From the NCBI GenBank assembly GCA_021738125.1, contig JAIPCR010000011.1, positions 1 through 32,858 on the forward strand: a stretch of DNA of 32,858 nt. Reading direction: 5' to 3'. The stretch comes from Sulfuritalea sp. (GTDB lineage: Bacteria > Pseudomonadota > Gammaproteobacteria > Burkholderiales > Methylophilaceae). The notes beneath the pieces are model-generated. The model made no database searches and was not told where the DNA came from. It saw only the letters and a program-made list of their open reading frames with translations. The position numbers were made by a program, and so were the translations under genes. How positions within the stretch are numbered: the first letter of the stretch is position 1; each line of letters opens with the position of its first letter. Below are positions 1 to 31,894 of the stretch, piece by piece.

Positions 1-704
1 TAGAGCACCATGCTGACATCTGCTGTACGTAATTCATCGACAGTAAATAATGGCGTGCTACCGAACTCGGTGATGTTGGCTAGCACAGGTACTTTGACTG
101 CGGCAGCAAATTGCTTGTACATACTCAGTTCTGTCATAGCTTCTGGAAATATCATGTCGGCGCCTGCTTCAACACATGCGCAAGCTCTATCAATGGCTGA
201 TTGCAAGCCTTCTACTGCCAATGCGTCAGTGCGGGCCATGACAACAAAGTCAGCATCAGGTTTGGCATCGACGGCAGCTTTAACGCGGTCGACCATTTCT
301 TCTAAGCTGACGATGGCTTTGTTAGGGCGGTGGCCACAACGTTTAGCGCTGACTTGATCTTCAATATGTACCGCTGCAGCTCCGGCTTTTGCAATACTTT
401 TTACACTGCGAGCAATATTAAAAGCACCGCCCCAGCCTGTATCAATATCCACTAATAATGGCGTATCTACCGCATCGGTGATGCGTCGCACGTCAATTAA
501 GACATCCTCTAAGGTGGAAATGCCTAAATCAGGCAAACCGAGTGAGCCGGCGGCAACGCCGCCACCAGATAAGTAAAGGGCTTTAAAGCCTGTTTGTGTC
601 GCGAGCATGGCGTGATAAGCATTGATTGCGCCGATGATTTGTAGCGGTTTTTCTGCTTTAAGCGCTGCGCGAAAACGTGCGCCAGCTGAAGCTGCTTGTG
701 TCAT
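1..704 (-). CDS. prpB: Methylisocitrate lyase PrpB (partial, C-terminus beyond window)
   Basis: This enzyme cleaves 2-methylisocitrate to pyruvate and succinate, the last step of the methylcitrate cycle for propionyl-CoA. The reading frame is open from an ATG at 702-704 to the window edge (234 codons of an expected ~295). It carries the isocitrate lyase/PEP mutase family signature [13 protein letters not shown] with the catalytic Cys at residue 123, VDIDTGWGG near residues 85-93 and VHIEDQV before the catalytic loop. KRCGH, rather than the KKCGH of isocitrate lyase, supports methylisocitrate lyase. It is the fourth gene of a leftward operon, 29 bases after the lyase gene at 734-1735, so propionyl-CoA disposal is probably co-expressed with the genes that could make it. 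Further prp genes may lie beyond position 1. Confidence 0.93.
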
Positions 705-733
705 ATTAAATACCTAAAAAAATAAACTGAAAA

Positions 734-1735
734 TTAGCTAAAAAACGCCTGCATTGCATCGGCTTGTATCGTCACTTTGGTCAATTTGGCTTTTTGCAAA
801 ATTTCCCAGAAATAGCGGTAAGTGGCTCGGTCGTGTAGTTCACCATCGTATTGAATGGGTCCCCAATCTGCTTTTTGCGCGGCTAATAAAATGTTGGCGC
901 CATCTTTTACTTCGTCAAAATTCGGCTTCATGGCGTCGACAATGGCTTCAATTTGCGTGGGGTAAATACTCCACATGCGTAAAAAGCCAAATTCATTGCG
1001 TGCGCGTGAAGCATCTGAATGGGTTGTTTCTACATTTTTAAGATCTAAGGTCACGTTATGGGCTGGCACTACGCCATTGGCCAGTGCCGCCGCCACGAGT
1101 TCTGCTTTAGCGCGGGCGAGTAATCGATGTTCAAATTGGCCAGGACTACGCATGGCTGATGCAGGAATTGCGCCATGATGACCGCTGACAAAATCCATTA
1201 AGCCAAAATCTAAAACTTGTAGCCAGGGTAATGTGGCGATTTCATGCACCGCTTTTAATGCACCATGTGTTTCAATCAAAATGTGCACTGGAATTTCACG
1301 TTGAATGCCATGAAAAGTCGCCACTTTTTGAATGTAGGCAATCATTTCGCTAGCTTGGGCATACGTCGTACATTTTGGGATAGTGATATAGCTTAAAACA
1401 TGGCCAGCACCGCCGACTAAAATGTCTACATCTTGCTTCCAAGCAGGGTGCGTGTAATCGTGAATACGTGCGCCTGCCATTTGATGTTTGTTTTCAGCGC
1501 TCGTGAGCACACGCACTATCATGGCGGCATGGTCACGTTCTTGCCCAGCTTGCGCACCATCTTCACAGTCACAGGTGATGTCAAATACTGGCCCTACCGT
1601 ATCTTGCATAGCCAGTGCTTTAAGAATTAATTTTTCACTGCCTGCAAAATGTTCGCAGGATGGAATAATCGGAAATGATTTTTCTCCACCAAATAAGGCT
1701 TCGCTTGGGTGAACTAACTGTTGTGTTGTCGCCAT
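734..1735 (-). CDS. HpcH/HpaI (CitE-like) lyase, probable malyl-/beta-methylmalyl-CoA lyase
   Basis: A 333-residue member of the HpcH/HpaI aldolase/citrate lyase beta family, whose members make or break 3-hydroxyacyl-CoA esters using Mg2+. The expected active-site residues are present: Glu58-Asp59 in CDCEDG, Arg90, Glu155 in ILIETHG and Asp181 in FGLMDFVSG, the Glu/Asp pair that binds Mg2+ in the family. The C-terminal stretch FGFLRMWSIYPTQIEAIVDA corresponds to the family's 'W.IHP.Q' segment. It lies 20 bases after the mesaconyl-CoA hydratase gene and 29 bases before prpB. The inferred reaction is therefore beta-methylmalyl-CoA to propionyl-CoA plus glyoxylate, reversibly. Malyl-CoA, citramalyl-CoA or another substrate cannot be excluded from sequence alone. 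Family assignment is firm; the substrate is inferred from context. Confidence 0.8.
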   Translation of the reverse strand: MATTQQLVHPSEALFGGEKSFPIIPSCEHFAGSEKLILKALAMQDTVGPVFDITCDCEDGAQAGQERDHAAMIVRVLTSAENKHQMAGARIHDYTHPAWKQDVDILVGGAGHVLSYITIPKCTTYAQASEMIAYIQKVATFHGIQREIPVHILIETHGALKAVHEIATLPWLQVLDFGLMDFVSGHHGAIPASAMRSPGQFEHRLLARAKAELVAAALANGVVPAHNVTLDLKNVETTHSDASRARNEFGFLRMWSIYPTQIEAIVDAMKPNFDEVKDGANILLAAQKADWGPIQYDGELHDRATYRYFWEILQKAKLTKVTIQADAMQAFFS

Positions 1736-1755
1736 AATATCGTCCTAATACTGAA

Positions 1756-2847
1756 TTAAACTGGTTTGCGTGGCATAAGCACGGTGTAATCTAGGTCTAG
1801 CACCACGTTGGGGTGATAGGATTTTTTCTCGCCATAGATCACATGTGTACTTGAGAGGGATGTGGCAGGAATGTTTTTGATGCCGACCATGCGCAGTCTT
1901 ACTGCTGCAACATCTACCCGATTGGGGATGAGCCATTTGTCGAGTACTTCTGACCAGGTGAAAATAGTGTCGTCGCCAAAAGTAGGGTTGCAATGCGTAC
2001 CTGCATTAATGGCCGCAATGGTGAGGGCATTTTCTAAGCCATCGTGAGAGAGTGCGCGGCATAGTGAAATAATGTGGCCGCCATACATTAGTCGACGCCC
2101 AAATGCTGTTTGTTTCATCATGACATCGTCAAAATGCAGACGCGCGTTGTTTTGATAAAGTTTGGTAGCAAGGGTGTGGTCGCTGTCATTAATCGTCATG
2201 CCAGCAGGGTGATTAATGCGCTCGCCAACGGTATAGTCGTCCCACAAGTATTGTCCGCCAGTGTTGGCCGTATTAAATTTTCTGGCATCTAAGAAGCTAG
2301 GCACAGTCAACTCGGTGTTAGGCACAAAGTCTAATAAAGTAGGAATAACAGTTTCTGGGGTGGGGGCGTTGATATCGTTTTTATGAACCATGACCCAGCG
2401 TACCCAAGAGAAGACCGGTTGTTGTAATTGGTTGGTTGAAACTGAGCGCACGTACACAACGCCAGATTTGCCGTTAGAGTTTTGTTTCAGGCCAATCACG
2501 GTAGAGCTTGTGCTGAGTGTGTCGCCTATGTAAACCGGGTGAAGAAATCTGACTTCTGCGTAGCCTAAGTTAGCCACTGCATTAACAGAAATATCAGGTA
2601 CAGTTTTACCAAAAGCAATATGAAATGCCAATAAATCGTCTACAGGACGCGCGTTATAGCCTAAGGATTGAGCGACAGTGTCGGCAGAATGAAGTACTTG
2701 TCGTGCACCAGTCAGCGCAATGTATAGCGCAACTTCGCCCTCACCTATGGTGCGTGGTGTAGCGTGATGTATCACTTGATTAAGTTCAAAATCCTCAAAG
2801 AAGTTGCCTGTACTTATTTTATTCGTAGTATTGGTTGTATTAGACAT
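1756..2847 (-). CDS. mch: Mesaconyl-CoA hydratase (double hot-dog MaoC type)
   Basis: This 363-residue protein resembles mesaconyl-C1-CoA hydratase (beta-methylmalyl-CoA dehydratase) of the ethylmalonyl-CoA pathway and the 3-hydroxypropionate bicycle, which interconverts mesaconyl-CoA and beta-methylmalyl-CoA. Recognised stretches are GNFFEDF (14-20), HATPRTIGEGE (28-38), FGKTVPDISVNAVANLGYAE (79-98), GLKQNSNGKSGVVYVR (119-134) and YQNNARLHFD (231-240), with the length expected for two fused hot-dog folds. The ATG overlaps the end of the upstream CitE-like gene by 8 bases, indicating translational coupling. The adjacent lyase would act on its product. No ethylmalonyl-CoA pathway genes (crotonyl-CoA carboxylase/reductase, mutases) are seen here, so the enzyme probably serves mesaconate, methylmalate or glyoxylate metabolism rather than that cycle. 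Confidence 0.88.
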   Translation of the reverse strand: MSNTTNTTNKISTGNFFEDFELNQVIHHATPRTIGEGEVALYIALTGARQVLHSADTVAQSLGYNARPVDDLLAFHIAFGKTVPDISVNAVANLGYAEVRFLHPVYIGDTLSTSSTVIGLKQNSNGKSGVVYVRSVSTNQLQQPVFSWVRWVMVHKNDINAPTPETVIPTLLDFVPNTELTVPSFLDARKFNTANTGGQYLWDDYTVGERINHPAGMTINDSDHTLATKLYQNNARLHFDDVMMKQTAFGRRLMYGGHIISLCRALSHDGLENALTIAAINAGTHCNPTFGDDTIFTWSEVLDKWLIPNRVDVAAVRLRMVGIKNIPATSLSSTHVIYGEKKSYHPNVVLDLDYTVLMPRKPV

Positions 2848-3721
2848 GGCTATCTTCCAAGGTAGTAATCATATCGTGAAGTTTCAATAAGCGTTCAGCG
2901 GCTCTTACATGGTGACGCTCTACTAATTTGTCGTTAACCACGACAGTGCCTTTACCCATTTTATTGGCCTCTTTCAGTGCGGCAATGATTTCACGCGCAT
3001 GCGTTACTTCAGTGGCTTGTGGACGATAAGCATCATTGCTGTAAGCCAGTTGAGCAGGGTGTACAAGTGATTTCCCGTCAAACCCCATGTCCCGTCCTAG
3101 TCGGCACGCGTATTCGAAAGAATGCATATTTTTGAAGTCGCTGGTAATGCCGTCAACCACCGCATGGCCATAAGCACGCGCAGCTAAAATCACCAGTGAT
3201 AAGGATGTCAGTATGGCTGAGCGCTCATGCGTCACGCGTGCGTGTAATTGCGAATTTAAGTCTGAAGTTGCCATAACCATACAGATAATGCGATCAGACG
3301 CGCTGGCAATTTCTTTGGCATTGAGTACGGCAATCGGGCTCTCTATCATGACCATGATAGGTAGATGACTACCGCCAGCGGCATCTAGTAATGACAGTGC
3401 AATCAGCACGTCTTCTTTAGATTCAATGTTGGGAAACAGTACCGCGTCTATTTTTGTTTTTGCGATGGCTTGAATATCATCCGGGCCCCATTGAGAAATT
3501 AAATCATTCACTCTAACGACTACTTCGCGATAGCCGTAACCACCTTCTGTGACGCTGCGTACAACGTTATCGCGAGATTCTTCTTTACGCTCAACTAGTA
3601 CTGGGTCGCCTAAATCAAGAATCACTGAATCGGCGTGCAATGTTCTTGCGCGATCAAGATAGTGAGTGTTGCATCCCGGCACGTAAAGCATGGATCGGCG
3701 TGGGCGGTAATATTGAGTCAT
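2840..3721 (-). CDS. CitE-like lyase of the HpcH/HpaI family, first gene of the mch-prpB operon
   Basis: A 293-residue classical-length CitE-like protein starting with the family N-terminus RRSMLYVPG. Arg70 (VVVRVND), Glu127 (MIESPIA) and Asp154 (SDLNSQL) match the catalytic Arg and the Mg2+-binding Glu/Asp. GHAVVDGITSDF and GFDGKSLVHPAQL are standard family segments. One family motif is altered: the usual DLEDAV reads DLGDPV, with Gly38 in place of Glu (codon at 3608-3610), and the usual FG before the metal Asp reads MAT. It is the first gene after the divergent promoter at 3773-3802. Plausible reactions are citramalyl-CoA to acetyl-CoA plus pyruvate, malyl-CoA cleavage, or an acyl-CoA thioesterase-like role as known for some CitE-like proteins. 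Substrate unassigned. Confidence 0.8.
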   Translation of the reverse strand: MTQYYRPRRSMLYVPGCNTHYLDRARTLHADSVILDLGDPVLVERKEESRDNVVRSVTEGGYGYREVVVRVNDLISQWGPDDIQAIAKTKIDAVLFPNIESKEDVLIALSLLDAAGGSHLPIMVMIESPIAVLNAKEIASASDRIICMVMATSDLNSQLHARVTHERSAILTSLSLVILAARAYGHAVVDGITSDFKNMHSFEYACRLGRDMGFDGKSLVHPAQLAYSNDAYRPQATEVTHAREIIAALKEANKMGKGTVVVNDKLVERHHVRAAERLLKLHDMITTLEDSHV

Positions 3722-3772: not shown

Positions 3773-3802
3773 ATTATATAGAGAGAAATTCCAAACTGTC
3801 AA
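3773..3802 (-). promoter_or_regulatory. Strong sigma70-type promoter for the citE-mch-lyase-prpB operon
   Basis: On the minus strand TTGACA (3797-3802) is followed after 18 bases by TATAAT (3773-3778), both exact consensus hexamers. The predicted start of transcription is near 3765, about 45 bases before the ATG at 3721. The candidate GntR operator begins 4 bases upstream of the -35. Confidence 0.75.
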
Positions 3803-3939: not shown

Positions 3940-4677
3940 ATGATAGACAAACAATACAATTCACCAAGTTATAAGCCGCTTTATGATCAGATTAAAGTAT
4001 TGCTCACGCAAAGTTTGATTGGTGGCGAATGGCGTCCTGGCGACATGATACCTAGCGAAATTGATTTAGCTGGTCGATATAAAGTCAGTCAAGGTACGGT
4101 TAGAAAAGCAATCGATGCGCTGGCAACAGAAAATATTTTGATTCGTCGTCAAGGTAAAGGCACCTTTGTCGCGACGCATAGTGCTGAAGGCATGAAGCTT
4201 AGATTTTTAAGGTTAACTTCAGTCGATGGTCAAAAAGAATTGCTTAAAAATGAATTTATTTCATGCACTAAAGGCAAAGCTGATGTGCGCATGGGGCAAG
4301 TTCTAGATTTAAAAGCAGGCGCATCAACAATAGAAATTAAACGATTGCTGACCTTTTCAGGCAGACCGTTAATTTACGATCATATTATTGTGCCGGCCGC
4401 ACCGTTTAAAGGCTTAAACGGCAATCGCGTTGAAGAAAATAATGGCTCTATGTATAGCATGTATGAATCGGAATTTGGCGTACGCATGATACGCGCAGAA
4501 GAGCGTTTAAAAGCAGTGGGGGCTCAAGGTGAAGTGGCAAAGGCGCTGGGGCTGAAAGAAAATGAGCCGATATTAAGTATCGAGCGTGTGTCGTTTACTT
4601 ATGGGGATAAACCTATGGAGTGGCGCTTAGGATTGTGTGTGACAGATAACCATCACTATATGAATGAGCTTGAGTAA
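3940..4677 (+). CDS. GntR-family (HutC subfamily) transcriptional regulator
   Basis: A 245-residue regulator with an N-terminal winged helix (about residues 10-75; PLYDQIK, GDMIPSEIDLAGRYKVSQGT and GKGTFVA are the classical GntR segments). A UTRA ligand-binding domain follows (about 95-240), whose 'SIERVSFTYGDKPMEW' end is typical of HutC-type members. It is divergent from the citE-mch-lyase-prpB operon and lies 60 bases upstream of the malic enzyme and sdh genes. It is therefore well placed to control both arms and itself through the palindrome at 3806-3830. The ligand is unknown; a C4/C5 dicarboxylate or a CoA ester intermediate would fit. A GntR gene beside sdh genes is also common in other betaproteobacteria. 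Confidence 0.88.
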   Translation: MIDKQYNSPSYKPLYDQIKVLLTQSLIGGEWRPGDMIPSEIDLAGRYKVSQGTVRKAIDALATENILIRRQGKGTFVATHSAEGMKLRFLRLTSVDGQKELLKNEFISCTKGKADVRMGQVLDLKAGASTIEIKRLLTFSGRPLIYDHIIVPAAPFKGLNGNRVEENNGSMYSMYESEFGVRMIRAEERLKAVGAQGEVAKALGLKENEPILSIERVSFTYGDKPMEWRLGLCVTDNHHYMNELE

Positions 4678-4737: not shown

Positions 4738-5946
4738 ATGGATGATTTAAAAAAACGCGCACTTGATTACCATGAGTTTCCTAAACCGGGGAAGCTTTCG
4801 GTGGAATCATCTAAACCATGTGCCACTCAAGATGATTTGTCTTTAGCCTATACGCCTGGCGTTGCGGTGCCTGTACGCGAGATTAATCGTGATCCTGCCA
4901 ATGCCTATAAATACACCAATAAAGGTAATTTAGTCGCGGTGATTACCGACGGTACGGCAGTCTTAGGTTTGGGTAATATGGGGCCACTTGCTAGCAAGCC
5001 TGTGATGGAAGGCAAAGCGGTTTTATTCAAACATTTTGCTGGGATTGATGTGTTTGATATTGAGGTGAACGCGCCAACGATTGAAGCATTTATCGAAACC
5101 GTTGTGAATATTGCCCCTACTTTTGGCGGTATTAACTTGGAAGATATTGCTGCGCCGCATTGTTTTAGGATTGAAAATGAGTTGCGTGCCCGTTTAGATA
5201 TCCCTGTGTTTCATGATGATCAGCATGGCACGGCAGTGATTGTTGCGGCTGCCTTATCAAACGCTTTAGAGCTACAAGGTAAAACTTTAGCCAACGCAAA
5301 AATTGTATTTTTGGGGGCAGGCGCGGCAGGTTGTTCATGCGCGCGTTTACTTAAATTAATGGGGGCGACCAATATCACTATGGTTGATAAAACCGGCGTA
5401 TTAGATACTTCACGTAGCGATTTACATGACAATAATCGCCACCTCGCGATTGCACCGAGTGATGCTAAAACTTTGGCAGATGTCATGCCGAATGCAGATG
5501 TATTTATTGGGGTATCAGCGGCTAATGCTTTATCGCCAGAGTTGTTGAAATTAATGGCGCCTAAGCCTGTGGTGTTCGCCTTGGCTAATCCTGATCCGGA
5601 AATATTGCCAAGTTTAGCGCATGCGGTGAGAGATGATATTTTAATGGCGACAGGCCGTTCAGATTTTCCAAATCAAGTGAATAATGCGCTGTGTTTTCCT
5701 TACCTGTTCCGCGGTGCACTGGATGCAAAAGCCAAACAAATTACAGATGAAATGCAAATAGCGGCAGCGCGTGCTTTAGCTGCTTTAGCGCGCGAACCTG
5801 TGCCTGAAGATGTGCTTAAAGCCTATAACTTAACGAGTTTAAGTTTTGGTAGGGATTATATTATTCCTAAGCCATTTGATAAGCGCTTGCTGGCAAGAGT
5901 CTCTGGGGCCGTAGCAGAAGCAGCTAGATTACAACAAGCTCAATAA
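4738..5946 (+). CDS. maeB: Malic enzyme, single-domain bacterial type
   Basis: Oxidative decarboxylation of malate to pyruvate with NAD(P)H formation. Visible signatures are SLAYTPGVAVP near residue 35, TDGTAVLGLGNMGPLASKPVMEGK, the metal-binding VFHDDQHGTAVIV and the dinucleotide-binding GAGAAGCSCARLL. At 402 residues it ends after the malic enzyme domain and lacks the phosphotransacetylase-like domain of long MaeB proteins; short forms are normal in many bacteria, so this is not a truncation. It lies between the GntR gene and sdhC, 13 bases before the sdhC ATG. In this cluster it would convert malate from the SDH/fumarase steps to pyruvate. NAD versus NADP preference cannot be read from the sequence. 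Confidence 0.92.
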   Translation: MDDLKKRALDYHEFPKPGKLSVESSKPCATQDDLSLAYTPGVAVPVREINRDPANAYKYTNKGNLVAVITDGTAVLGLGNMGPLASKPVMEGKAVLFKHFAGIDVFDIEVNAPTIEAFIETVVNIAPTFGGINLEDIAAPHCFRIENELRARLDIPVFHDDQHGTAVIVAAALSNALELQGKTLANAKIVFLGAGAAGCSCARLLKLMGATNITMVDKTGVLDTSRSDLHDNNRHLAIAPSDAKTLADVMPNADVFIGVSAANALSPELLKLMAPKPVVFALANPDPEILPSLAHAVRDDILMATGRSDFPNQVNNALCFPYLFRGALDAKAKQITDEMQIAAARALAALAREPVPEDVLKAYNLTSLSFGRDYIIPKPFDKRLLARVSGAVAEAARLQQAQ

Positions 5947-5959
5947 AGTATCGTTGAAT

Positions 5960-6370
5960 ATGTCAAATTCATCATCACAAAATAGCGCAAAAGCGCAAAA
6001 AGCACGACCAAAAAATCTCAATTTATTGACGATACGCTTGCCAATTAATGCTTTGGTTTCAATTTTGCATAGGGCAACTGGTTGCGTTCTGTTTTTTATT
6101 CTTCCAGTTGTTTTGTTACTTTTACAATGGTCACTTAGCTCTGCGCTGCGTTTTGAAACCGTGGTTGCCATTCTGCATTCACCGCTAATCAAGCTGATGT
6201 TGCTTGGCTTAGCCTGGGCTTTTTTTCATCACTTCTTCGCGGGTATTCGGCACCTAGCGATGGACGTGCACTGGATGACGACGCTTATGAAAGCGCGCTA
6301 TACCAGCAAGGTGGTATTAGTGCTGGGGGCAATCGCCACACTGGTGTTAGCAATTAAATTATGGTTATAG
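5960..6370 (+). CDS. sdhC: Succinate dehydrogenase cytochrome b556 subunit SdhC
   Basis: Membrane anchor subunit of complex II (136 residues from ATG 5960). The in-frame TTG at 5954 is less likely because the family begins a few residues before the first conserved segment. INALVSILHRATG is the quinone-site signature, three hydrophobic helices follow, and GIRHLAMD contains the probable heme b ligand His98. The N-terminal ~25 residues are polar and Lys-rich, as expected for a cytoplasmic tail. It is followed 4 bases later by sdhD in the sdhCDAB order. Confidence 0.9.
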   Translation: MSNSSSQNSAKAQKARPKNLNLLTIRLPINALVSILHRATGCVLFFILPVVLLLLQWSLSSALRFETVVAILHSPLIKLMLLGLAWAFFHHFFAGIRHLAMDVHWMTTLMKARYTSKVVLVLGAIATLVLAIKLWL

Positions 6371-6374
6371 ACTT

Positions 6375-6719
6375 ATGTTGATAGAACTTTTAACAAAACG
6401 CTATCCCGGTATGCGGGCTTGGCTAACGCAACGCTTAAGCGGCTTAGTGATGGCGATTTATTCTGTGCTAGCGGTAGGGCGATTTTTAGTATTACAACCC
6501 ACTTATTATGAAGCATGGGTCGATTTTTTTAAGCCGTGGTGGTGGCGTCTAGCTAGCCTGCTGTTTTGGATAAGTTTATCGATTCACGTTTGGTTGGGTA
6601 TTCGTGATGTATTTAAAGATTATGTGCCTAATGCCAACTTGCGTGCCATATTGGTGAAGTTATTGTTGGTGTTGTTATGGCTTTATATGGCTTGGGCAAC
6701 TTGGTTGTTATTAGGTTAA
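6375..6719 (+). CDS. sdhD: Succinate dehydrogenase membrane anchor subunit SdhD
   Basis: A 114-residue three-helix anchor of complex II. AWLTQRLSGLVMAIYS is the first conserved segment. SIHVWLGIRDVFKDYVP carries the putative heme ligand His71 and the conserved IRD quinone-site residues. It sits between sdhC and sdhA with 4- and 30-base gaps, so the four subunits are presumably on one transcript. Confidence 0.9.
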   Translation: MLIELLTKRYPGMRAWLTQRLSGLVMAIYSVLAVGRFLVLQPTYYEAWVDFFKPWWWRLASLLFWISLSIHVWLGIRDVFKDYVPNANLRAILVKLLLVLLWLYMAWATWLLLG

Positions 6720-6749
6720 TTTAAAATTTTATTGAAGGTTTAATTGGTT

Positions 6750-8513
6750 ATGGCAGTTGCAACTCAAATATTTGATGCTTTAGTCGTGGGTGGTGGTGGT
6801 GCTGGCTTGCGCGCTTCATTACAGTTAGCGAAATCTGGCCTGAAGGTGGCTGTGTTGTCTAAAGTATTCCCAACACGCTCACACACCGTTGCGGCCCAGG
6901 GTGGGATTGCTGCGGCACTAGGCAACGTGGCAAATGATCAGTGGCTATGGCATATGTATGACACCATCAAGGGCTCAGATTATCTGGGTGATCAAGATGC
7001 GATTGAGTTTATGTGTAAAAATGCTGCTGCTGCCATTTATGAGCTTGAGCATTTTGGTATGCCGTTTGACCGATTAGAGAATGGCAAAATATTTCAACGC
7101 CCATTTGGTGGCATGACGCAGAATTTCGGCGAAAGTGCCATTTCACGCACCTGTGCCGTGGCCGATAGAACTGGCCATGCCATGTTACACACGTTGTATC
7201 AACGTAATATTCAATCCAATACCCAGTTTTTTGTAGAGTGGTTAGCGCTTGATTTGTTAAAAGATGCCGATGGCGATGTGTTAGGCGTTTTGGCCTTAGA
7301 AATTGAGACGGGTGAAGTGCATTGCATACGCGCTAAAGCCACCATGTTAGCTACAGGTGGTGCAGGTCGTATATTTAAGGCCAGTACCAATGCTTTCATT
7401 AATACTGGCGATGGTTTAGGTATGGCCGCACGTGCCAATATTCCGCTTCAGGATATGGAGTTTTGGCAATTTCATCCTACCGGTGTATTAAATGCAGGCG
7501 TGTTGATTACCGAGGGTGTGCGTGGTGAAGGTGGTTATTTAGTCAATAGTGAAGGCGAGCGTTTCATGGAGCGCTATGCGCCTCATGCAAAAGATTTAGC
7601 CAGTCGCGATGTTGTCTCACGCGCAACTGCCACTGAGATTAAAGAAGGTCGTGGTGTGGGTAAAAATAAAGATGCCGTTTATTTGAAATTAGACCATTTA
7701 GGTGAAGCGCTGATTAATGACAAGTTGCCAGGTATACGCGAAATCGCCAAAACCTTTGCTAATGTTGACCCTGTTAAAGACCCAATCCCTATTGTTCCAA
7801 CCGCACATTATATGATGGGTGGCATTCCAACTAATTTGCAAGGCCAAGTAATCGTGCCGGATGGTAAAGGTGGCCAGTCTGTCGTGAATGGTCTATATGC
7901 AGTAGGCGAATGCGCTTGTGTGTCAGTGCATGGGGCAAATCGTTTAGGCTCAAATTCGCTGCTAGATTTGGTGGTATTTGGTCGCGCGGCAGGTGACAAA
8001 ATGGTTGAAGAGGTGAGAAAAGATAACCATCACAAGCCATTACCAGCGGATGCATTTGATAAGACTTTAGCTAGATTAAACCGCTTAGATACCCAGGCGC
8101 AAGGTGAATCTGTCAAAGACGTGGGCACAGCGTTACGCGAAACCATGCAAACGCATTGTGGCGTATTTCGTTTTCCTGACTTATTACATGCAGGTGTAGA
8201 TAAAATTAACCAAGTTGCAGAACGTGCTAAAAATACCGTGATTAAAGATAAAAGTCAGGTATTTAATACCGCTAGGGTGGAGGCGTTAGAGCTGGATAAT
8301 TTGGTCGAAGTAGCATTAGCGACCATGCACGCGGCAGACGCCAGAACTGAAAGTCGCGGCGCCCATGCGCGAGAAGATTTTAGTGAGCGCGATGATAAAA
8401 ACTGGCTGACACACTCGCTTTATTATCGTGAAGGGCATCGCCTGGCCTATAAGCCTGTGCGCTTGAAGCCACAGACAGTAGAGAGCTTTGAACCCAAAGC
8501 ACGGGTGTATTAA
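6750..8513 (+). CDS. sdhA: Succinate dehydrogenase flavoprotein subunit SdhA
   Basis: Catalytic subunit oxidising succinate to fumarate with covalently bound FAD (587 residues from ATG 6750; an in-frame TTG at 6744 is less likely, and GAAGG at 6734-6738 is a loose ribosome site). It shows the N-terminal FAD-binding [14 protein letters not shown], the flavin-attaching His45 in SHTVAAQGG, the active-site [29 protein letters not shown] and [18 protein letters not shown]. Its product fumarate would feed the class I fumarase further along this strand. The maturation factor SdhE is encoded in the same run. Confidence 0.97.
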
Positions 8514-8540
8514 ATTAATTCGTATTAAAGAGACTAAAAG

Positions 8541-9281
8541 ATGAAATTCTCAATTTATAGATTTAACCCCGATGTAGACAAAAAACCCTACATGCAAGAT
8601 TACGACGTGGTGTTAGAGGATAGTGATCAAATGCTATTAGATGCATTACTACGCATCAAGGATTTGGATGATACTTTAAGTTTACGTAAATCATGTCGTG
8701 AGGGCGTTTGTGGCTCCGATAGTATGAATATTAATGGTAAAAATGGCTTAGCTTGTATTACTAAATTGTCAGATTTAGAAGAGCCTGTTGTATTAAGACC
8801 TATGCCAGGTTTGCCGGTGATTCGCGACTTGGTTGTGGATATGACGCAGTTTTTCGAGAACTATAATTCAGTTAAGCCTTATATGGTGAACAATGATCCA
8901 CCACCAGAGACTGAGCGCTTGCAGTCGCCTGAAGACAGAGCCAAGCTAGACGGCTTATATGAATGCATTTTATGTGGCGCATGCACAACTTCATGCCCTT
9001 CGTTTTGGTGGAATCCAGATAAATTTGTTGGACCAGCAGGCTTAATGCAGGCCTACCGATTTATGGTGGACAGCCGTGATCAAGCCATGGATGAGCGTTT
9101 GGAGAATTTAGAAGCGCCAGATCGATTGTATCGTTGCCATAACATTATGAATTGCGTTGAAGTTTGCCCGAAAAAACTGAATCCTAGTGCTGCGATTGCA
9201 AAAATTAAAGACCTTAAGTTTGAGCAAGCACGTGAGCATAAGAATCAGGCAAAAAAACATATAGAAATTAAATCAGTGTAG
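8541..9281 (+). CDS. sdhB: Succinate dehydrogenase iron-sulfur subunit SdhB
   Basis: Electron-transfer subunit of complex II, 246 residues, slightly longer than the usual ~235 because of a charged C-terminal tail rich in Lys. The [2Fe-2S] site is Cys52, Cys57, Asp60 and Cys72 (CREGVCGSD...GLAC); the Asp in place of a Cys ligand is also found in the E. coli enzyme. The [4Fe-4S] and [3Fe-4S] sites are provided by CILCGACTTSCPSFWW and CHNIMNCVEVCPKKLNP. GAGACT-rich bases precede the ATG, 27 bases after sdhA. Confidence 0.96.
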   Translation: MKFSIYRFNPDVDKKPYMQDYDVVLEDSDQMLLDALLRIKDLDDTLSLRKSCREGVCGSDSMNINGKNGLACITKLSDLEEPVVLRPMPGLPVIRDLVVDMTQFFENYNSVKPYMVNNDPPPETERLQSPEDRAKLDGLYECILCGACTTSCPSFWWNPDKFVGPAGLMQAYRFMVDSRDQAMDERLENLEAPDRLYRCHNIMNCVEVCPKKLNPSAAIAKIKDLKFEQAREHKNQAKKHIEIKSV

Positions 9282-9630: not shown

Positions 9631-10794
9631 ATGAATAAGGTCCATTCAATTGTTGATGATATCAATATGAATAATCAAAGCAAAATAAAATGTTATAGCA
9701 ACAGCTCAATGTTAGGTGAAAGCTGGCCTGGTATACAGTTGTATTACCCACCGGTTAAATATTCACCTGCTTTAGGGATTTATGAAGATTTAACGCAGGC
9801 TGCTGCGCGTATGCGCAAGCACGCACACAACACCAATGCCCATACTTTGATTTTTGACTTAGAAGATGGTTGTCGTCAAAAGGTGATGAGTCGTGATTTA
9901 TTAAGACAAGAGTTACCTTTGCTACGCAAAGATAATCAGCAGGTGACGATTGCGATTCGCGCGAACTCATTCCGTACAGACGAATATGAATTAGACATGC
10001 AGTTGGTTCGGGATATGTCTGACTACATTGATGTGGTGATGCTGGCTAAAGCAGGTGAGGCTTATGGTGCAGCTGAAGTGCGTGATTTATCAAGCTTTTT
10101 AGTTGAGATTAACCCTCACATTACGATACAGCCAATTATTGAGCACCCTAAATCACTCAAAATTGCTCCTGAGTTGTTGCAATACAGCACAGTGAAGCAT
10201 GTGGTCTTTGGTATTCATGACTTTTCTAAAGCGATGGGTATACACATTACGCCAGAAAATTGGATAGAAGAACTACAGTTCTATATGAACCAATTGATGT
10301 TTGAAGCGCGTATTGCAGGTAAGGGCGTAATTGGTGGGGTAGAAACCTTGATTGGCGCTAATGTAATGCCAGAAAAATTTGTAGAGCCTCATGATGTCCG
10401 TCGCTGGTTAGATTTGCATGGAGATAATGAGTCCAGAGTAGTTTACAAGCATGCCTGCCAGGAAGCTGCGATGGGTCTCACTGGTAAACAAGTGATACAC
10501 CCGGGCCATATTCACTTATGTAAAACGGCATATACACCATCGCCTACCGAAGTGAATCAAAAGGTTCGCATTCTTAAGGCGGCGATTGAGGCTGATGCCT
10601 TGCATGGTGGGGCCATTAAGTTTGAAGGTGAAATGCTTGATCCACCTATGTTTGGTAAGGCCTTGCAAACATTGTTACGTGCCCATGCGTTAAGAGCCAT
10701 CACCCCTGAAGATAAAAACTTTGCCTTACAAGTGCTTGAGTTATTGCCAGCGCAAGTGATACGTCAAAACTGGCCATACGGAGCGATTTTATAA
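9631..10794 (+). CDS. Long CitE-like lyase of the HpcH/HpaI family (third paralog)
   Basis: A 387-residue CitE-type protein, about 90 residues longer than classical CitE. It has an N-terminal extension before the first strand and a C-terminal helical tail of about 60 residues. Active-site residues are present: Glu78-Asp79 in FDLEDG, Arg110 in AIRANSFR, Glu171 in PIIEHP and Asp197 in FGIHDFSKAMG; GKQVIHPGHI is the family's closing segment. The ATG at 9631 is preceded by GAAAGAG at 5-base spacing. It lies between sdhE and an acyl-CoA ligase, which suggests the ligase makes the CoA ester that this lyase cleaves, for example citramalyl-CoA or malyl-CoA. The substrate is not determinable from sequence. 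It is only distantly similar to the two CitE-like proteins on the other strand, so it is not a recent duplicate. Confidence 0.78.
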   Translation: MNKVHSIVDDINMNNQSKIKCYSNSSMLGESWPGIQLYYPPVKYSPALGIYEDLTQAAARMRKHAHNTNAHTLIFDLEDGCRQKVMSRDLLRQELPLLRKDNQQVTIAIRANSFRTDEYELDMQLVRDMSDYIDVVMLAKAGEAYGAAEVRDLSSFLVEINPHITIQPIIEHPKSLKIAPELLQYSTVKHVVFGIHDFSKAMGIHITPENWIEELQFYMNQLMFEARIAGKGVIGGVETLIGANVMPEKFVEPHDVRRWLDLHGDNESRVVYKHACQEAAMGLTGKQVIHPGHIHLCKTAYTPSPTEVNQKVRILKAAIEADALHGGAIKFEGEMLDPPMFGKALQTLLRAHALRAITPEDKNFALQVLELLPAQVIRQNWPYGAIL

Positions 10795-10850: not shown

Positions 10851-12485
10851 ATGATGCAAAAATTTGAAAAATTTCCAGACTGGCAATGGCGTGTTGAAAA
10901 AAATTTCAATATCGGTGCGGCTTGTACAGACAAACATTTAAATACGCCAGTGGCACAAGCCATTGCGATGATTGTAGAAGATGATGTGCAAGGGACATCT
11001 CAAATTACTTTTGAGCAATTAGCTAAACGCACAGATCAATTTGCCCAGTTACTTAGAAACTTACAAGTCAATGTGGGTGAGCGCGTTTTGATTCGTTTGC
11101 CCAATTGCTTAGATTACCCTACTGCATTCTTGGGTACCATGAAGCGTGGCGCAATTTCCGTCCCCACCTCAACTTTACTCACCGCTGAGGAGGTTGCTTA
11201 TTTGGCGCGTGATTCTAATGCTGCCGTATTAGTAACAGATAAAGCCGCGTGGCCAGCATTACAAGATCATTTATCAGGGTTGCCTAATTTAAAGCATGTA
11301 TTTTTATCAGGAACCGGCGAAATTGCTAAGCACGCCACATTGAATGTCTGTGATTTGGCTGCTGCGCTTTCGGCGATTGAGACATGCTCAGGCACACACC
11401 CAACCGCGGCTGAAGATCCGGCTTATTTAGTCTATACATCAGGTACGACGGGTTACCCCAAGGGCGTGTTACATGCGCACCGTGCCTTAATCGGTCGTGA
11501 GCCTGCGGCAAAATATTGGTTTAATTTTTCTGATAATCTACAAGACCGCATTATGCATTCAGGAAAATTCAACTGGACTTATGTACTCGGGACCGGCTTG
11601 ATGGATCCCTTGTATCTTGGTAAAACAGTCATAGTGCACGAAGGTAAGAACGATGCAGATTTGTGGACACGGTTGATTGCTAAACACTCGGCAACTATTT
11701 TTGTCGGTGTACCTACGATTTATCGCCAAATTATTCAAAAATCATCGGCCCAGCAGGCAGATGTAACCAGTTTGCGTCATTGCATGAGTGCAGGCGAACA
11801 TTTGTCTGATGAAGTGTTGCAACAATGGCGTGCACGTTTCGGTCAAGATATTTATGAAGCGGTCGGTATGAGTGAATTTTCATACTATTTAAGTCAAAGT
11901 ACGTTCCGTCCGATTAGAGCCGGTTCAGCAGGTTTTCCGCAGCCTGGCCATGCGATTAAATTACTTAATCCAGAAACTTTGGAAGAAGTCGAGCAGGGTG
12001 AAGAGGGCATGATTTGTGTGCCAGATAATGACCCTGGCCTATTTTTACGCTATTGGAATTTAGATGAAGAAACGGCAAAATATAAGCACGATGGCTGGTT
12101 TTTTACTGGGGATTACGCACGCTACGATGAGGACGGCTATATTTGGTTCTTAGGGCGTAAGGATGACATTATTAAAAGTTTTGGTTACCGTGTGTCGCCT
12201 TATGAAATTGAGCGTGTGTATAAGTCGCATCCAGCAGTGGCAGACTGTGCCGCAGTGGGTGAGGAGCTTGAGAAAGATAAACTGCTAGTAGTGACTTACG
12301 TGATATTACAGCCTAATCTTGAGGTGACGGCAGACGAACTGTTGGCATTTGGTAAGCAACATTTGGCTGCTTATAAAACACCTAAAACGGTTTATTTAAC
12401 TAAAGATTTTCCACGCACTAAAAATGGCAAAATTTTACGTAAAGATATTAATAATAAAATTGCTTATGCAAAATCCGCAAGATAA
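10851..12485 (+). CDS. AMP-forming acyl-CoA ligase (ANL superfamily)
   Basis: A 544-residue AMP-dependent synthetase that would activate a carboxylic acid with ATP and CoA. The phosphate-binding loop YTSGTTGYPKGVLH begins at residue 195. FFTGDYARYDEDGYIWFLGRKDDIIKSFGYRVSPYEIE covers the hinge (about 420-455), and PRTKNGKILRK holds the catalytic Lys527. The overall style resembles the benzoate-CoA ligase and medium-chain acyl-CoA synthetase branch rather than acetyl-CoA synthetase. Lying between a CitE-like lyase and a class I fumarase, it is a candidate mesaconate, citramalate or similar dicarboxylate-CoA ligase. A role with propionate is also possible. ATG 10851 is directly followed by a second ATG, and either may be used. 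Confidence 0.82.
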   Translation: MMQKFEKFPDWQWRVEKNFNIGAACTDKHLNTPVAQAIAMIVEDDVQGTSQITFEQLAKRTDQFAQLLRNLQVNVGERVLIRLPNCLDYPTAFLGTMKRGAISVPTSTLLTAEEVAYLARDSNAAVLVTDKAAWPALQDHLSGLPNLKHVFLSGTGEIAKHATLNVCDLAAALSAIETCSGTHPTAAEDPAYLVYTSGTTGYPKGVLHAHRALIGREPAAKYWFNFSDNLQDRIMHSGKFNWTYVLGTGLMDPLYLGKTVIVHEGKNDADLWTRLIAKHSATIFVGVPTIYRQIIQKSSAQQADVTSLRHCMSAGEHLSDEVLQQWRARFGQDIYEAVGMSEFSYYLSQSTFRPIRAGSAGFPQPGHAIKLLNPETLEEVEQGEEGMICVPDNDPGLFLRYWNLDEETAKYKHDGWFFTGDYARYDEDGYIWFLGRKDDIIKSFGYRVSPYEIERVYKSHPAVADCAAVGEELEKDKLLVVTYVILQPNLEVTADELLAFGKQHLAAYKTPKTVYLTKDFPRTKNGKILRKDINNKIAYAKSAR

Positions 12486-12517: not shown

Positions 12518-14047
12518 ATGACCACGATACAGCAGGAAGACTTCATTCAAAGCATTGCAGATGCACTGCAATACATTTCTTACTACCATCCGCTTGATTA
12601 TATTCAGGCGCTGGGACGTGCCTATGAAGCGGAGCAATCAACAGCTGCTAAAGACGCTATTGCACAAATTTTAACCAATTCGCGTATGTGCGCCGAAGGT
12701 AAACGGCCGCTTTGCCAAGATACTGGCATTGTTGTTGCTTTTGTTAAAGTAGGCATGCAAGTAAAGTGGAATTCAACTTTAAATGTAGAGCAAATGGTGA
12801 ATGAAGGTGTGCGTCGTGCTTATCAGTTGCCGGAGAATAAATTACGTGCTTCTATAGTGAGCGACCCAGCTGGAAAGCGCGCCAATACTAAAGATAACAC
12901 GCCAGCAGTAGTGCATGTTTCATTGGTCACGGGGGATAAAGTTGAGGTAAGTATTGCCGCTAAAGGCGGAGGCTCAGAGAATAAAGCGAAGCTGACGATG
13001 CTTAACCCCAACGACAGCATCGTTGATTGGATATTGGGCGTGGTGCCCCAAATGGGTGCAGGTTGGTGTCCACCAGGCATGTTGGGTATAGGCATAGGCG
13101 GTAGTGCAGAAAAAGCTGTATTGTTAGCCAAAGAATCACTGATGGCGCCGATAGATATGCATGAGCTTAAGGCAAAGGGCGCAAGCAATAGAATAGAAGA
13201 ATTGCGCTTAGAAATTTTTGAAAAAGTGAATAATTTGGGTATAGGCGCGCAAGGTTTAGGGGGTCTGGCGACTGTATTGGATGTGAAGATATTAGATTAT
13301 CCTACGCATGCGGCTTCACTGCCGGTGGCAATTATCCCTAATTGTGCCGCAACGCGACATGTGCATTTTGAGTTGGATGGTAGTGGTGTAGCGCAATTAG
13401 AAGCGCCTGATTTGAATGATTGGCCTGATGTGCATTGGACCCCCAGTGAAGCGTCTTTAAGGGTGAATTTAGATACGATTACTAAAGCGCAGATTCAAAC
13501 TTGGCAACCTGGTCAAACTTTGTTGCTGAGTGGAAAATTACTGACAGGCCGTGATGCAGCGCATAAACGTATCGCGACTATGTTGGCAGCAGGAGAAAAG
13601 CTACCTGTTGATTTTACTAATCGATTTATTTATTACGTAGGTCCGGTAGATGCAGTAGGTAATGAAGCGGTAGGCCCGGCTGGACCGACGACAGCGACGC
13701 GGATGGATGGCTTTACTGACATGATGTTAGGTCAAACGGGTTTGTTGGGCATGGTCGGAAAAGCTGAGCGGGGCGATGAAACAATAGCTTCGATTGCCAG
13801 TTATCAGTCAGTTTATTTGACAGCAGTGGGCGGTGCCGCCTATTTGGTAAGTAAAGCGATTAAAAAAGCAGAAGTGCTGGCATTTGCTGACTTGGGCATG
13901 GAAGCAATCTATGAGTTTACTGTACAAGATATGCCTGTAACAGTGGCGGTGGATAGTAAGGGCGTGTCCGTACATAGTATTGGCCCAGCGACTTGGCAAG
14001 CAAAAATTGCTAGCCAAAGTTTTGTAGAAATACACGCTGTTACTTAA
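12518..14047 (+). CDS. fumA: Class I fumarate hydratase (iron-sulfur, single-chain)
   Basis: A 509-residue fumarase that joins both class I domains in one chain and converts fumarate to malate. The three cluster ligands are visible: Cys66 (PLCQDTG), Cys184 (GWCPPGMLG) and Cys276 (PNCAATRH). GGGSENKAK, GIGIGGSAEKA and the C-terminal GPTTATRMDGF are further family segments. Class I fumarases from Burkholderia xenovorans and E. coli are known to hydrate mesaconate to (S)-citramalate as well. That activity is plausible here because the gene sits with an acyl-CoA ligase, CitE-like lyases and, across the GntR gene, mesaconyl-CoA hydratase. It begins 32 bases after the ligase stop. Fumarase function is near certain; mesaconase function is inference. 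Confidence 0.95.
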   Translation: MTTIQQEDFIQSIADALQYISYYHPLDYIQALGRAYEAEQSTAAKDAIAQILTNSRMCAEGKRPLCQDTGIVVAFVKVGMQVKWNSTLNVEQMVNEGVRRAYQLPENKLRASIVSDPAGKRANTKDNTPAVVHVSLVTGDKVEVSIAAKGGGSENKAKLTMLNPNDSIVDWILGVVPQMGAGWCPPGMLGIGIGGSAEKAVLLAKESLMAPIDMHELKAKGASNRIEELRLEIFEKVNNLGIGAQGLGGLATVLDVKILDYPTHAASLPVAIIPNCAATRHVHFELDGSGVAQLEAPDLNDWPDVHWTPSEASLRVNLDTITKAQIQTWQPGQTLLLSGKLLTGRDAAHKRIATMLAAGEKLPVDFTNRFIYYVGPVDAVGNEAVGPAGPTTATRMDGFTDMMLGQTGLLGMVGKAERGDETIASIASYQSVYLTAVGGAAYLVSKAIKKAEVLAFADLGMEAIYEFTVQDMPVTVAVDSKGVSVHSIGPATWQAKIASQSFVEIHAVT

Positions 14048-14530: not shown

Positions 14531-17110
14531 ATGTTAAAAGCCTATGCCGCGCACGTGCAAGAACGTGCTAATAATCAATTACCACCATTACCGCTTAATG
14601 CTGAGCAAGTTGCTCAAGTTGTAGAGTTGCTTAAAAACCCACCTGCAGGTCAGGCTGAAATCTTAATTGATCTGATTGCCAACCGCACGCCGGCTGGGGT
14701 AGATCAGGCCGCCTATGTAAAAGCTGCATTTTTATCTGATATTGCCAATGGCAAAGCTGTTTCACCTTTGATGACGCCAGCGCAAGCCGTTGAGTTGCTT
14801 GCAACGATGTTAGGTGGATATAACGTTCAAGCGTTAGTAGCCCTACTTGATACGCCTATGGCAGAAGCCGCAGTGGATGCCTTATCAAAAACTATTTTAA
14901 TGTTTGATGCTTTTCATGATGTGAATGAAAAAATGAAAGCAGGTAACGTACATGCTAAAAAACTCATCACATCATGGGCGAATGCAGAATGGTTTACGAA
15001 TGCCCCAGTATTAGCTAAAGAAATTAAATTGGTGGTCTTCAAAGTCGATGGTGAAACCAATACCGATGATTTAAGCCCCGCACAAGATGCTTGGAGTCGC
15101 CCAGATATTCCTTTGCATGCCAAAGCGATGTTGGTGAATAAAATGCCAGAAGGCTTAAAGCTGATTGATACTTTGAAGCAAAAAGGTTTGCCACTGGCTT
15201 ATGTCGGTGATGTTGTTGGTACCGGTTCTTCACGTAAATCGGCGATTAATTCCTTGCAGTGGTTTATGGGTAATGACATTCCTAATATTCCGAACAAGCG
15301 CACGGGTGGCGTCATTCTAGGCACTAAAATTGCCCCTATTTTCTTTAATACGGCAGAAGATTCTGGTGCATTGCCTATCCAATGTGACGTTTCAAAAATG
15401 CACACAGGGGACATCATCACCATTCAGCCTTATGCGGGAAAAGTGCTAAATGAAGCGGGCGAAGTGATTTCTAGTTTTGATTTGGCACCATTAACCATCC
15501 CAGATGAAGTGCGCGCAGGCGGGCGTATTGCATTGATTATTGGACGTGGATTAACCACTAATGCCCGTGCGGCTTTAGGCTTGCCGCCAACAGAATTGTT
15601 TATCAGCGCCGCCACACCAAAAGATAGTGGTAAGGGCTATACGCTTGCCCAAAAAATGGTGGGTAGAGCATGTGGCTTGCCTGAGGGAGTAGGAGTTAGG
15701 CCAGGGTCATATTGTGAGCCTAAAGCCACAACCGTAGGTTCACAAGACACTACAGGCGGCATGACCCGTGATGAGCTGAAAGAATTGGCTTGTTTGGGTT
15801 TTAGTGCAGATTTGGTGATGCAAAGCTTCTGTCATACTGCGGCTTATCCAAAACCAGTAGACATTAAATTGCATCATAGTTTGCCAGAGTTTATGAGTAG
15901 CCGTGGTGGTGTGAGTTTGCGCCCGGGTGACGGTGTGATTCACTCTTGGTTAAACCGTATGGTATTGCCCGATACGGTAGGTACTGGCGGTGACTCGCAT
16001 ACGCGCTTCCCAATAGGTATTTCATTCCCAGCGGGTTCTGGTCTAGTTGCCTTTGCTGCGGCCATGGGCGCGATGCCGTTAGATATGCCGGAATCAGTGT
16101 TAGTACGTTTTAAAGGCACGATGCAACCAGGTATTACTTTACGTGATTTAGTCAATGCCATTCCTTATGCCGCTATTCAAAAAGGTGAGCTGACAGTGGG
16201 TAAGCAAGGCAAAAAAAATGTCTTTAATGGCCGTATTTTAGAAATTGAAGGTTTGCCTGATTTGAAGGTAGAGCAAGCCTTTGAATTTGCTGATGCCTCT
16301 GCTGAACGTTCTGCAAATGGTTGTACGGTTAAGTTAAACAAAGCACCAGTGATTGAGTTTCTAAGTTCAAATATCGTGCTTATGCAAAACATGATTGATA
16401 ATGGCTATGAAGATGCGCGTTCGTTACAACGTCGTATTGCCAGCATGCAAGCGTGGTTGGCTAAGCCTGAGTTGTTAGAACCCGATGCGAATGCTGAGTA
16501 CGCATACACACTTGAAATTGATTTAAATGAAATTAAAGAACCTTTAGTAGCATGCCCTAACGATCCTGATGATATTAAGCCATTGTCAGCTGTGATGGGT
16601 GACAAGGTTGACGAGGTGTTCATTGGTAGTTGCATGACTAATATTGGTCATTATCGCGCCGCCGCAAAAGTGTTAGAAGGTTCAGGGAATATTCCTACTC
16701 GTTTATGGATTGCGCCACCTACTCGTATGGATGAAGCGCAACTTAGAGACGAGGGTGTTTATTCTGTATTTGGCGTAGCTGGTGCGCGTACTGAAATTCC
16801 AGGTTGTTCTTTATGTATGGGCAATCAAGCGCGTGTAGCTGATAAAGCGACAGTGTTTTCAACCAGCACACGTAATTTTGATAACCGTATGGGGATGGAT
16901 GCCCGCGTTTATCTAGGTTCAGCTGAATTAGCGGCAGTGTGTGCGAAGTTGGGACGTATGCCAACGCATGCTGAATATATGGAAACAGTCGGTAATAAAT
17001 TACAAAATACCGCTGAAATTTATAAATATCTTAACTTTGATCAAATGCCAGATTATTCAGCAAGTTTGGCCAAGTCTAAAAAAATCATTCCTATTGCTGA
17101 AGTGATTTAA
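14531..17110 (+). CDS. acnB: Aconitate hydratase B / 2-methylisocitrate dehydratase
   Basis: An 859-residue AcnB-type aconitase, close to the 865 residues of E. coli AcnB, with the HEAT-like N-terminal domain and the swivel domain preceding the catalytic part. It isomerises citrate to isocitrate and can hydrate 2-methyl-cis-aconitate to 2-methylisocitrate, the substrate of PrpB. The cluster ligands are the Cys in [13 protein letters not shown] and the two Cys in [14 protein letters not shown] near the C-terminus. [13 protein letters not shown] and [15 protein letters not shown] are active-site segments. It closes the metabolic cluster and is followed by a long hairpin. Its presence with prpB supports a working methylcitrate cycle, although prpC and prpD are not in the window. 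Confidence 0.96.
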
Positions 17111-25672: not shown

Positions 25673-25705
25673 ATTTGCTTCATGAATATTGATACAGGAA
25701 AAAAC

Positions 25706-29907: not shown

Positions 29908-29934
29908 TCAAGCCTAGTTTACGGGCCTGCTTTG

Positions 29935-31875: not shown

Positions 31876-31894
31876 ATCAATTCCTTACTTTAAA

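Follow-up and report, generated by a model that had tools for sequence, protein, structure and literature searches.

The locus at the start of the stretch of DNA analysed here (the window, 32,858 nucleotides of contig JAIPCR010000011.1 from Sulfuritalea sp.) may encode a citramalate cycle that is closed by the methylcitrate cycle and replaces the glyoxylate cycle, a reading whose probability we put at about 0.48. The window is contig C121 of genome G000 (1.9 Mb, 127 contigs, 86% complete). More tentatively, and with the odds against it, cyl3 would be a CitE-family enzyme making (S)-citramalate, and together with a fumarase/mesaconase, a ligase, maoC, cyl1 and the methylcitrate cycle it would form a complete replacement of the glyoxylate cycle in methylotrophs and other bacteria without isocitrate lyase (ICL) and Ccr. 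A preliminary description of this DNA had linked a mesaconyl-CoA hydratase and a methylmalyl-CoA-type lyase to the methylcitrate cycle. Homology and gene context support that link, and its central chemistry, the conversion of mesaconyl-CoA to propionyl-CoA and glyoxylate, is probably right. It missed that other genes of this locus, cyl3 and those for a class I fumarase and an acyl-CoA ligase, could plausibly supply the mesaconyl-CoA.

The proposed cycle and its genes

In the proposed cycle, cyl3, perhaps helped by a thioesterase, would join acetyl-CoA and pyruvate to form (S)-citramalate. The class I fumarase, judged by homology, would act as a mesaconase and turn citramalate into mesaconate; the step has precedent because the class I fumarases of E. 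coli and Burkholderia xenovorans hydrate mesaconate to (S)-citramalate, according to the passages on these enzymes in PMC4682846. A 544-aa ligase would then activate mesaconate to mesaconyl-C1-CoA, from which the homologies of maoC and cyl1 predict hydration to beta-methylmalyl-CoA and cleavage to propionyl-CoA and glyoxylate. Propionyl-CoA and oxaloacetate would yield pyruvate and succinate through prpC, prpD, acnB and prpB, as expected of these gene families, and succinate would return to oxaloacetate by succinate dehydrogenase, fumarase and malate oxidation. Malate would be made from glyoxylate and acetyl-CoA by a lyase together with cyl2, the thioesterase-type protein, or, in genomes that have it, by malate synthase. 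The net conversion, acetyl-CoA and oxaloacetate to glyoxylate and succinate, would equal that of the ICL branch, with pyruvate regenerated by PrpB and presumably one ATP spent to AMP per turn. The direction of the pathway is the one we infer. The citramalate synthase CimA was set aside as the first enzyme, with no search made for it; it makes (R)-citramalate, and mesaconase uses (S)-citramalate (PMC8307300).

The genes cyl2 (2840..3721, 293 aa), maoC (1756..2847, 363 aa), cyl1 (734..1735, 333 aa) and prpB (3..704, 234 aa, open at the window edge) form a tight leftward row on the minus strand, with an 8-base overlap followed by gaps of 20 and 29 bases. The row had been described as such before, and its open reading frames (ORFs) and spacing are confirmed. 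The prpB product matches 2-methylisocitrate lyase (NF008455, 432.4 bits, cut-off 353). The gene is cut by the contig end, and its remaining part lies on contig C83 of G000, followed by prpC and prpD, the two genes that the preliminary description had suggested seeking beyond position 1. They are 91% and 95% identical to their G013 copies, which are named from sequence reading and the published cluster. With an aconitase ORF, named in the same way, the gene set of the methylcitrate cycle is present. The four-gene row is more than a chance arrangement, because 25 of the 30 loci compared, the window's own included, keep all four genes; the other five (L002, L014, L018, L023, L030) each lack one, and at least L018 and L030 are short, cut loci. 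A sigma-70-like promoter, TTGACA-18-TATAAT (3773..3802, minus strand), a 12/12 consensus match only, ends about 50 bases upstream of the cyl2 start, and such sites are not enriched in the region, which holds fewer of them than its shuffled versions.

Divergent from cyl2, on the plus strand, lie a GntR/UTRA regulator gene, gntR (3940..4677; PF00392, PF07702), a gene for a 402-aa malic enzyme, presumably the published 'mdh' (4738..5946; PF00390, PF03949), and the succinate dehydrogenase ORFs sdhC, sdhD, sdhA and sdhB (5954..9281), named from sequence reading and the published cluster. They are followed by cyl3 (9631..10794; PF03328), which encodes a divergent CitE-like protein of 387 aa, the proposed maker of (S)-citramalyl-CoA or (S)-citramalate, and by the AMP-forming acyl-CoA ligase, presumably the published 'prpE' (10851..12485; PF00501). 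Next come the class I (Fe-S) fumarase, the proposed fumarase/mesaconase (12518..14047; TIGR00722, 210.7 bits, cut-off 100.65), and an ORF read as aconitase B (acnB/can, 14531..17110) from its sequence and the published 'can', which would provide the 2-methylisocitrate-forming step. That the parts of the module stand in one divergent locus in Methylophilaceae supports the proposed cycle.

Over residues 10-361, the maoC product matches 4e3e (E 6e-129), a MaoC dehydratase in the PDB that we take to be Chloroflexus Mch, and 8hgn, 'Beta-methylmalyl-CoA dehydratase' (E 1e-107); the Pfam model MC_hydratase covers residues 8-154 only (46.4 bits, cut-off 26.5). With this full-length homology, maoC is a predicted mesaconyl-CoA hydratase of the Mch family. 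The closest structures to cyl1, the proposed beta-methylmalyl-CoA lyase, are 3qqw (E 4e-154) and 3r4i (4e-109), whose subfamily it shares, and then the malyl-CoA lyase 4l9y (5e-14).

For the three CitE-like proteins, the comparison covered positions that Zarzycki and Kerfeld describe (PMC3832036), in the numbering of the R. sphaeroides lyase. In their account, the superfamily keeps the lid residue Asp299, apart from the cluster of the R. sphaeroides malyl-CoA thioesterase, which has Glu there. The lid position is Asp in cyl1 (29 of 29) and cyl3 (22 of 22) and Glu in 25 of 26 cyl2 proteins, the other having Gln (L042). Glu also occupies it in all 36 cyl2-like proteins that adjoin maoC in other loci, mostly labelled Alphaproteobacteria. 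A second set of 14 sequences each, a few of them shared with the first, gave Asp in cyl1 and cyl3 (14/14 each) and Glu in cyl2 (13/14), the exception being the CitE part beside the ligase in L094 (34% identity), not a clear cyl2. The superfamily's catalytic residues Arg76, Glu141, Asp168 and Asp299 are kept in every cyl1 (29/29). It is new here that cyl2 carries, at this position of its sequence, the Glu that marks malyl-CoA thioesterases, and cyl1 and cyl3 the Asp of lyases. The 293-aa protein belongs to the HpcH/HpaI/CitE-like group; its earlier label 'CitE-like' overlooked the thioesterase signature.

For the 544-aa ligase, the best PDB relatives are anthranilate/benzoate-CoA ligases. We doubt its published name, prpE, as PrpE models are not among the best 25 of 107 NCBIfam families; a PrpE over the curated cut-off adjoins prpB in G337. 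Of the itaconate degradation proteins, RipB and RipC are matched by maoC (104.9 against 340 bits) and cyl2 (119.7 against 375 bits), respectively, in both cases below the curated cut-off.

Within this conserved cluster, maoC is oddly divergent (L026, L030, L038). In G001 it is 66% identical, against 98% for prpB, 92-94% for gntR and 84% for cyl1, and in G009 62%, against 95% for gntR. Two maoC lineages, or gene replacement inside the genus, may lie behind this divergence of sequence. The gene has an internal TAA in G024 (C34) and is split into two adjacent pieces in G020 (C101), possibly through decay or assembly error.

Occurrence of the gene set and genome content

Among the best 80 loci kept from a scan of named genomes, 17 hold cyl1, maoC, cyl2, cyl3 and the ligase together in the stretch fetched (the cyl2 match of L094 being 34%), and include loci labelled Thiobacillus, Tepidiphilus, Gallionella, Methylophaga and Sulfurospirillum. 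Nine of these 17 lie outside Methylophilaceae by title or identity (L041-L044, L047-L049, L051, L094); seven of the nine have no prp gene within the fetched stretch, and four have a class I fumarase nearby (L041, L043, L048, L094). The closest of the 80 are labelled Methylophilaceae, for example a metagenome-assembled genome (MAG) of Methylotenera oryzisoli (L046; gntR 95%, prpB 96%). In many others, among them Alphaproteobacteria, Myxococcales, Chloroflexi and Janibacter, maoC is found, frequently together with a cyl2-like gene, and cyl1, cyl3 and the ligase are missing; the stretches examined in Cupriavidus (L081, L090) hold a maoC-cyl1 pair only, with a GntR and an acyl-CoA dehydrogenase gene near. 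A plasmid search for cyl3 carriers returned 120 records, every one below 60% identity. In the Sulfurospirillum-labelled MAG (L094, 6426-8972), the ligase lies within one 848-aa ORF that carries a CitE-like stretch with the lyase Asp, not the cyl2 Glu, a fusion like that described for AB1918 of A. butzleri.

A tie to acetate would come from another family, f23, in which the gene set is split. Each of the 10 loci fetched from its 12 genomes carries, divergent to cyl3-ligase, a gene whose identity to the AcsA of L039 is 67-71%, and all five AcsA proteins tested pass the cut-off (974-998 bits against 724.95). After cyl3-ligase come a TIGR00645 membrane protein and then the class I fumarase in 9 of the 10 loci. 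Elsewhere in these genomes, cyl2-maoC-cyl1-prpB with prpC, divergent from gntR, was found in 10 of 11 genomes examined, and in nine of those 10 the sdh genes lie beside gntR; the eleventh locus (L142) begins at cyl1, where the contig ends, and the twelfth genome, G355, has no PrpB over cut-off. Malate synthase is present in 12/12 f23 genomes and ICL is missing in 10/12. The half that would make mesaconyl-CoA therefore stands beside acetate activation, and the half that would use it beside methylcitrate genes. This split, new here, would tie the cyl3-ligase-fumarase half to acetate. In one Methylophilaceae genome (G016), AcsA (973.8 bits) follows prpD.

The f23 loci with the TIGR00645 protein between ligase and fumarase are L121, L122 and L127-L133; the window has one too, past acnB (18800-19342, minus strand). 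Farther along, a type I secretion ATPase (TIGR03375, over cut-off) and an HlyD adaptor lie at 25682-32527, with LapD-like and LapG-like proteins, both below equivalog cut-offs, nearby; by sequence, this group resembles a Lap-type adhesin release system.

Seventeen genomes were chosen for the module; in G013 and G036 the stretches fetched end before the place where cyl3 and the ligase would lie. PrpB is over cut-off in 15 of the 17, and that of a sixteenth, G000, is split over two contigs; ICL is found in 0/17, and the contrast genomes G047 and G058 both have it. Malate synthase occurs in 2/17 and 2-oxoglutarate dehydrogenase E1 in 7/17, the latter being absent from the seven Methylophilaceae among them, both Methylophaga-labelled genomes and the Sulfurospirillum-labelled one. 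G000 itself, as far as its 86% completeness goes, has no ICL over cut-off and no malate synthase match, and so no complete glyoxylate cycle. The ethylmalonyl-CoA pathway, whose absence had been claimed earlier, can be set aside, since Ccr is over the TIGR01751 cut-off in 0/12 and 0/29 genomes (G000 with the completeness just given) and the control genomes hold one over cut-off.

To place these counts in the order, 399 Burkholderiales genomes were searched for cyl3 at E 1e-60, and 22 have it. ICL occurs in 2 of the 22 (G058, G355) and in 14 of 28 cyl3-negative genomes (Fisher p 0.002), and PrpB in 20 of 21 against 11 of 28 (p 6e-5), where the 20 include the split G000, G355 is the miss, and G058 stood outside the profile search (its prpB was seen in L034). 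Nineteen of the 28 negatives are listed without a match in the order draw, and the other nine come from the homologue scan and are perhaps not part of that draw; G047, likewise listed without cyl3 but with ICL, is not among the 28. The 19 alone give ICL in 9/19 and PrpB in 5/19. Thus, as a new observation, cyl3-positive Burkholderiales have prpB and are mostly without ICL, and none of those tested has Ccr over cut-off.

Points against the proposed cycle and alternative roles

Several points weigh against the proposed cycle. The association counts ignore shared ancestry, and 12 of the 22 cyl3-positive genomes belong to f23 and six to Methylophilaceae. Seven Methylophilaceae without cyl3 are also without ICL (0/7) and have no PrpB over cut-off, so the module is not required just because ICL is absent. 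Among the 17 module genomes searched, G062 lacks PrpB; G058 has ICL alongside the module, and G355 has cyl3, ligase, fumarase and acsA but also ICL, and no PrpB over cut-off. The f23 genomes retain cyl2 despite their malate synthase. The otherwise conserved Glu44 is Gly in the window's cyl2 and in 21 of the 26 (the gntR-linked type), with Asp45 retained by the window protein and by 19 of the 26; because the superfamily-conserved Glu44/Asp45 pair is not maintained, we treat cyl2 as a carrier of the signature and not as a member of the malyl-CoA thioesterases. Position 167, which is Ala in known malyl-CoA lyases (MCL) and is tied to propionyl-CoA binding by the authors in their account of it (PMC3832036), is Met in all 29 cyl1 proteins and His in cyl3; in the absence of this Ala, cyl1 is classed as working like MCL and not as a member of the MCL cluster. 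The AlphaFold2 model of cyl3 is poor (pLDDT 61.9). Foldseek ranks CitE/citramalyl-CoA entries first for it, and we give this ranking no weight because the model is poor, malyl-CoA lyases follow close behind and the TM score is about 0.4. A. butzleri, which has similar parts, failed to grow on either acetate or propionate, and the section describing these genes favours the opposite direction (PMC2147049). Finally, enzyme functions and flux are predicted throughout.

Closest to the preliminary description is catabolism of external C5 dicarboxylates, in which mesaconate, or citramalate by way of fumarase, would be activated by the ligase, hydrated and then split, with the resulting propionyl-CoA and glyoxylate going to the methylcitrate cycle. 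Such a route would draw on the same gene functions, methylcitrate genes are adjacent, and B. xenovorans is reported to use mesaconate via class I fumarase (in the corresponding passages of PMC4682846). However, no common transporter was seen among 11 loci compared, and besides the module, prp, gntR and malic enzyme genes, no family is found in more than two of the 11 (one pair, an ABC ATPase in L036 and L044). The comparison used longest-ORF choice, which took wrong-strand frames in GC-rich loci (e.g. L041, L042), and the naming of ORFs and the list of shared genes are therefore incomplete there. C5 catabolism also leaves the low ICL frequency and the divergent acsA in 10/10 f23 loci unexplained, and we consider it unlikely.

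Alternatively, the reactions could run in reverse, with glyoxylate and propionyl-CoA condensed and converted to acetyl-CoA and pyruvate, as in the second half of the 3-hydroxypropionate bicycle. The ligase could then activate citramalate instead of mesaconate, and the A. butzleri proposal, in its published outline, treats the reactions as interconversions (PMC2147049). The adjacent methylcitrate cycle, however, would compete for propionyl-CoA, and two features of f23, the adjacent acsA and a malate synthase in genomes that lack ICL, sit better with the forward direction. The class III CoA transferase family PF02515, to which we take Mct of the 3-hydroxypropionate bicycle to belong, has no match in 9/9 Methylophilaceae or in G050 (2 of 12 genomes overall, G047 and G058), which rules out that type of CoA transfer for them. 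We regard the reverse direction as quite unlikely.

It is improbable that the cluster mainly disposes of propionyl-CoA from elsewhere (amino acids, odd-chain acids), with the CitE and MaoC proteins as repair or overflow enzymes: prpB, prpC and prpD are present and the published role is simply 'methylcitric acid cycle', but the module occurs without adjoining prp genes in G050 and in Thiobacillus-, Tepidiphilus- and Gallionella-labelled loci and has its own acetate-linked half in f23.

Relation to known systems and significance

The preliminary description held the assembled pathway to be little described; the cluster is in fact published (PMC4109929, PMC3728764), and similar parts appear in the description of A. 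butzleri (PMC2147049). The gene list of the window locus is the same as that of the Methylophilaceae 'methylcitric acid cycle' cluster, given in the relevant passage as prpCBD, cyl1, maoC, cyl2, gntR, mdh, sdhABCD, cyl3, prpE, fum and can (PMC4109929). The passages on the cluster give cyl1-3 and maoC no function (PMC4109929, PMC3728764), whereas functions are proposed here, and one of them calls its role and the metabolite processed unknown (PMC3728764). The same source reports for Methylotenera that expression in situ, under lake conditions, was generally higher for the cluster than for the ribulose monophosphate (RuMP) genes, the main pathway of C1 assimilation, and that its gntR was overexpressed in situ. 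PMC6794327 describes a propionate-oxidising pathway that Methylotenera, Methylophilus and others possess and that the Ca. Methylopumilus strains of that study lack. A MAG titled Candidatus Methylopumilus universalis (L052) does carry the cluster; its title may be loose.

A citramalate cycle was proposed for Rhodospirillum rubrum by Ivanovsky et al. in 1997 (cited in PMC4682846, reviewed in PMC8307300) and is described in the citing passage as still to be proven (PMC4682846). It shares citramalate, mesaconate, mesaconyl-CoA, methylmalyl-CoA and the products glyoxylate and propionyl-CoA with our proposal. In R. rubrum, propionyl-CoA would pass to pyruvate via succinyl-CoA and glyoxylate possibly to malate synthase, whereas here the methylcitrate cycle would regenerate pyruvate. 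The likeness to A. butzleri, from a 2007 study reportedly by Miller et al., rests on published description and not on sequence comparison. In that description, ab1917-ab1921 encode a pair of CitE-like proteins together with a hydratase, a fumarase of the class I type and a ligase that carries a fused CitE domain, and the same reactions are predicted; prpB and prpC are in the genome but outside the cluster as described, whereas here prp genes adjoin the module (PMC2147049).

Mesaconyl-CoA is likewise converted to propionyl-CoA and glyoxylate in the lower half of the ethylmalonyl-CoA pathway, with which the locus shares an Mch-family maoC and, in cyl2, the thioesterase signature. That pathway draws mesaconyl-CoA from crotonyl-CoA, whereas here, with no Ccr, it would come from citramalate. 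In the haloarchaeal methylaspartate cycle, mesaconate comes from glutamate. There, as outlined in passages of PMC3832036, a CitE-like lyase also cuts beta-methylmalyl-CoA to glyoxylate and propionyl-CoA, and a second CitE-like protein is the malate synthase. A literature search on acetate assimilation, ICL and the methylcitrate cycle in Betaproteobacteria gave no match, and another, judged mostly by title and the start of the abstract, gave no paper tying the Methylophilaceae cluster to the citramalate cycle. The cluster is known in print with no function assigned, and our reading is a variant of a proposed pathway.

If the reading is true, the locus would turn acetyl-CoA and pyruvate into propionyl-CoA and glyoxylate in a methanol-type bacterium, feed them into the methylcitrate cycle and possibly stand in for the glyoxylate cycle. 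The reading supplies testable substrates for six gene products and candidate genes for the citramalate cycle of the 1997 proposal, and it addresses the Methylotenera methylcitrate cluster, the role of which was called unknown where it was described (PMC3728764). It may also answer how acetyl-CoA is assimilated in several bacteria without ICL or Ccr.

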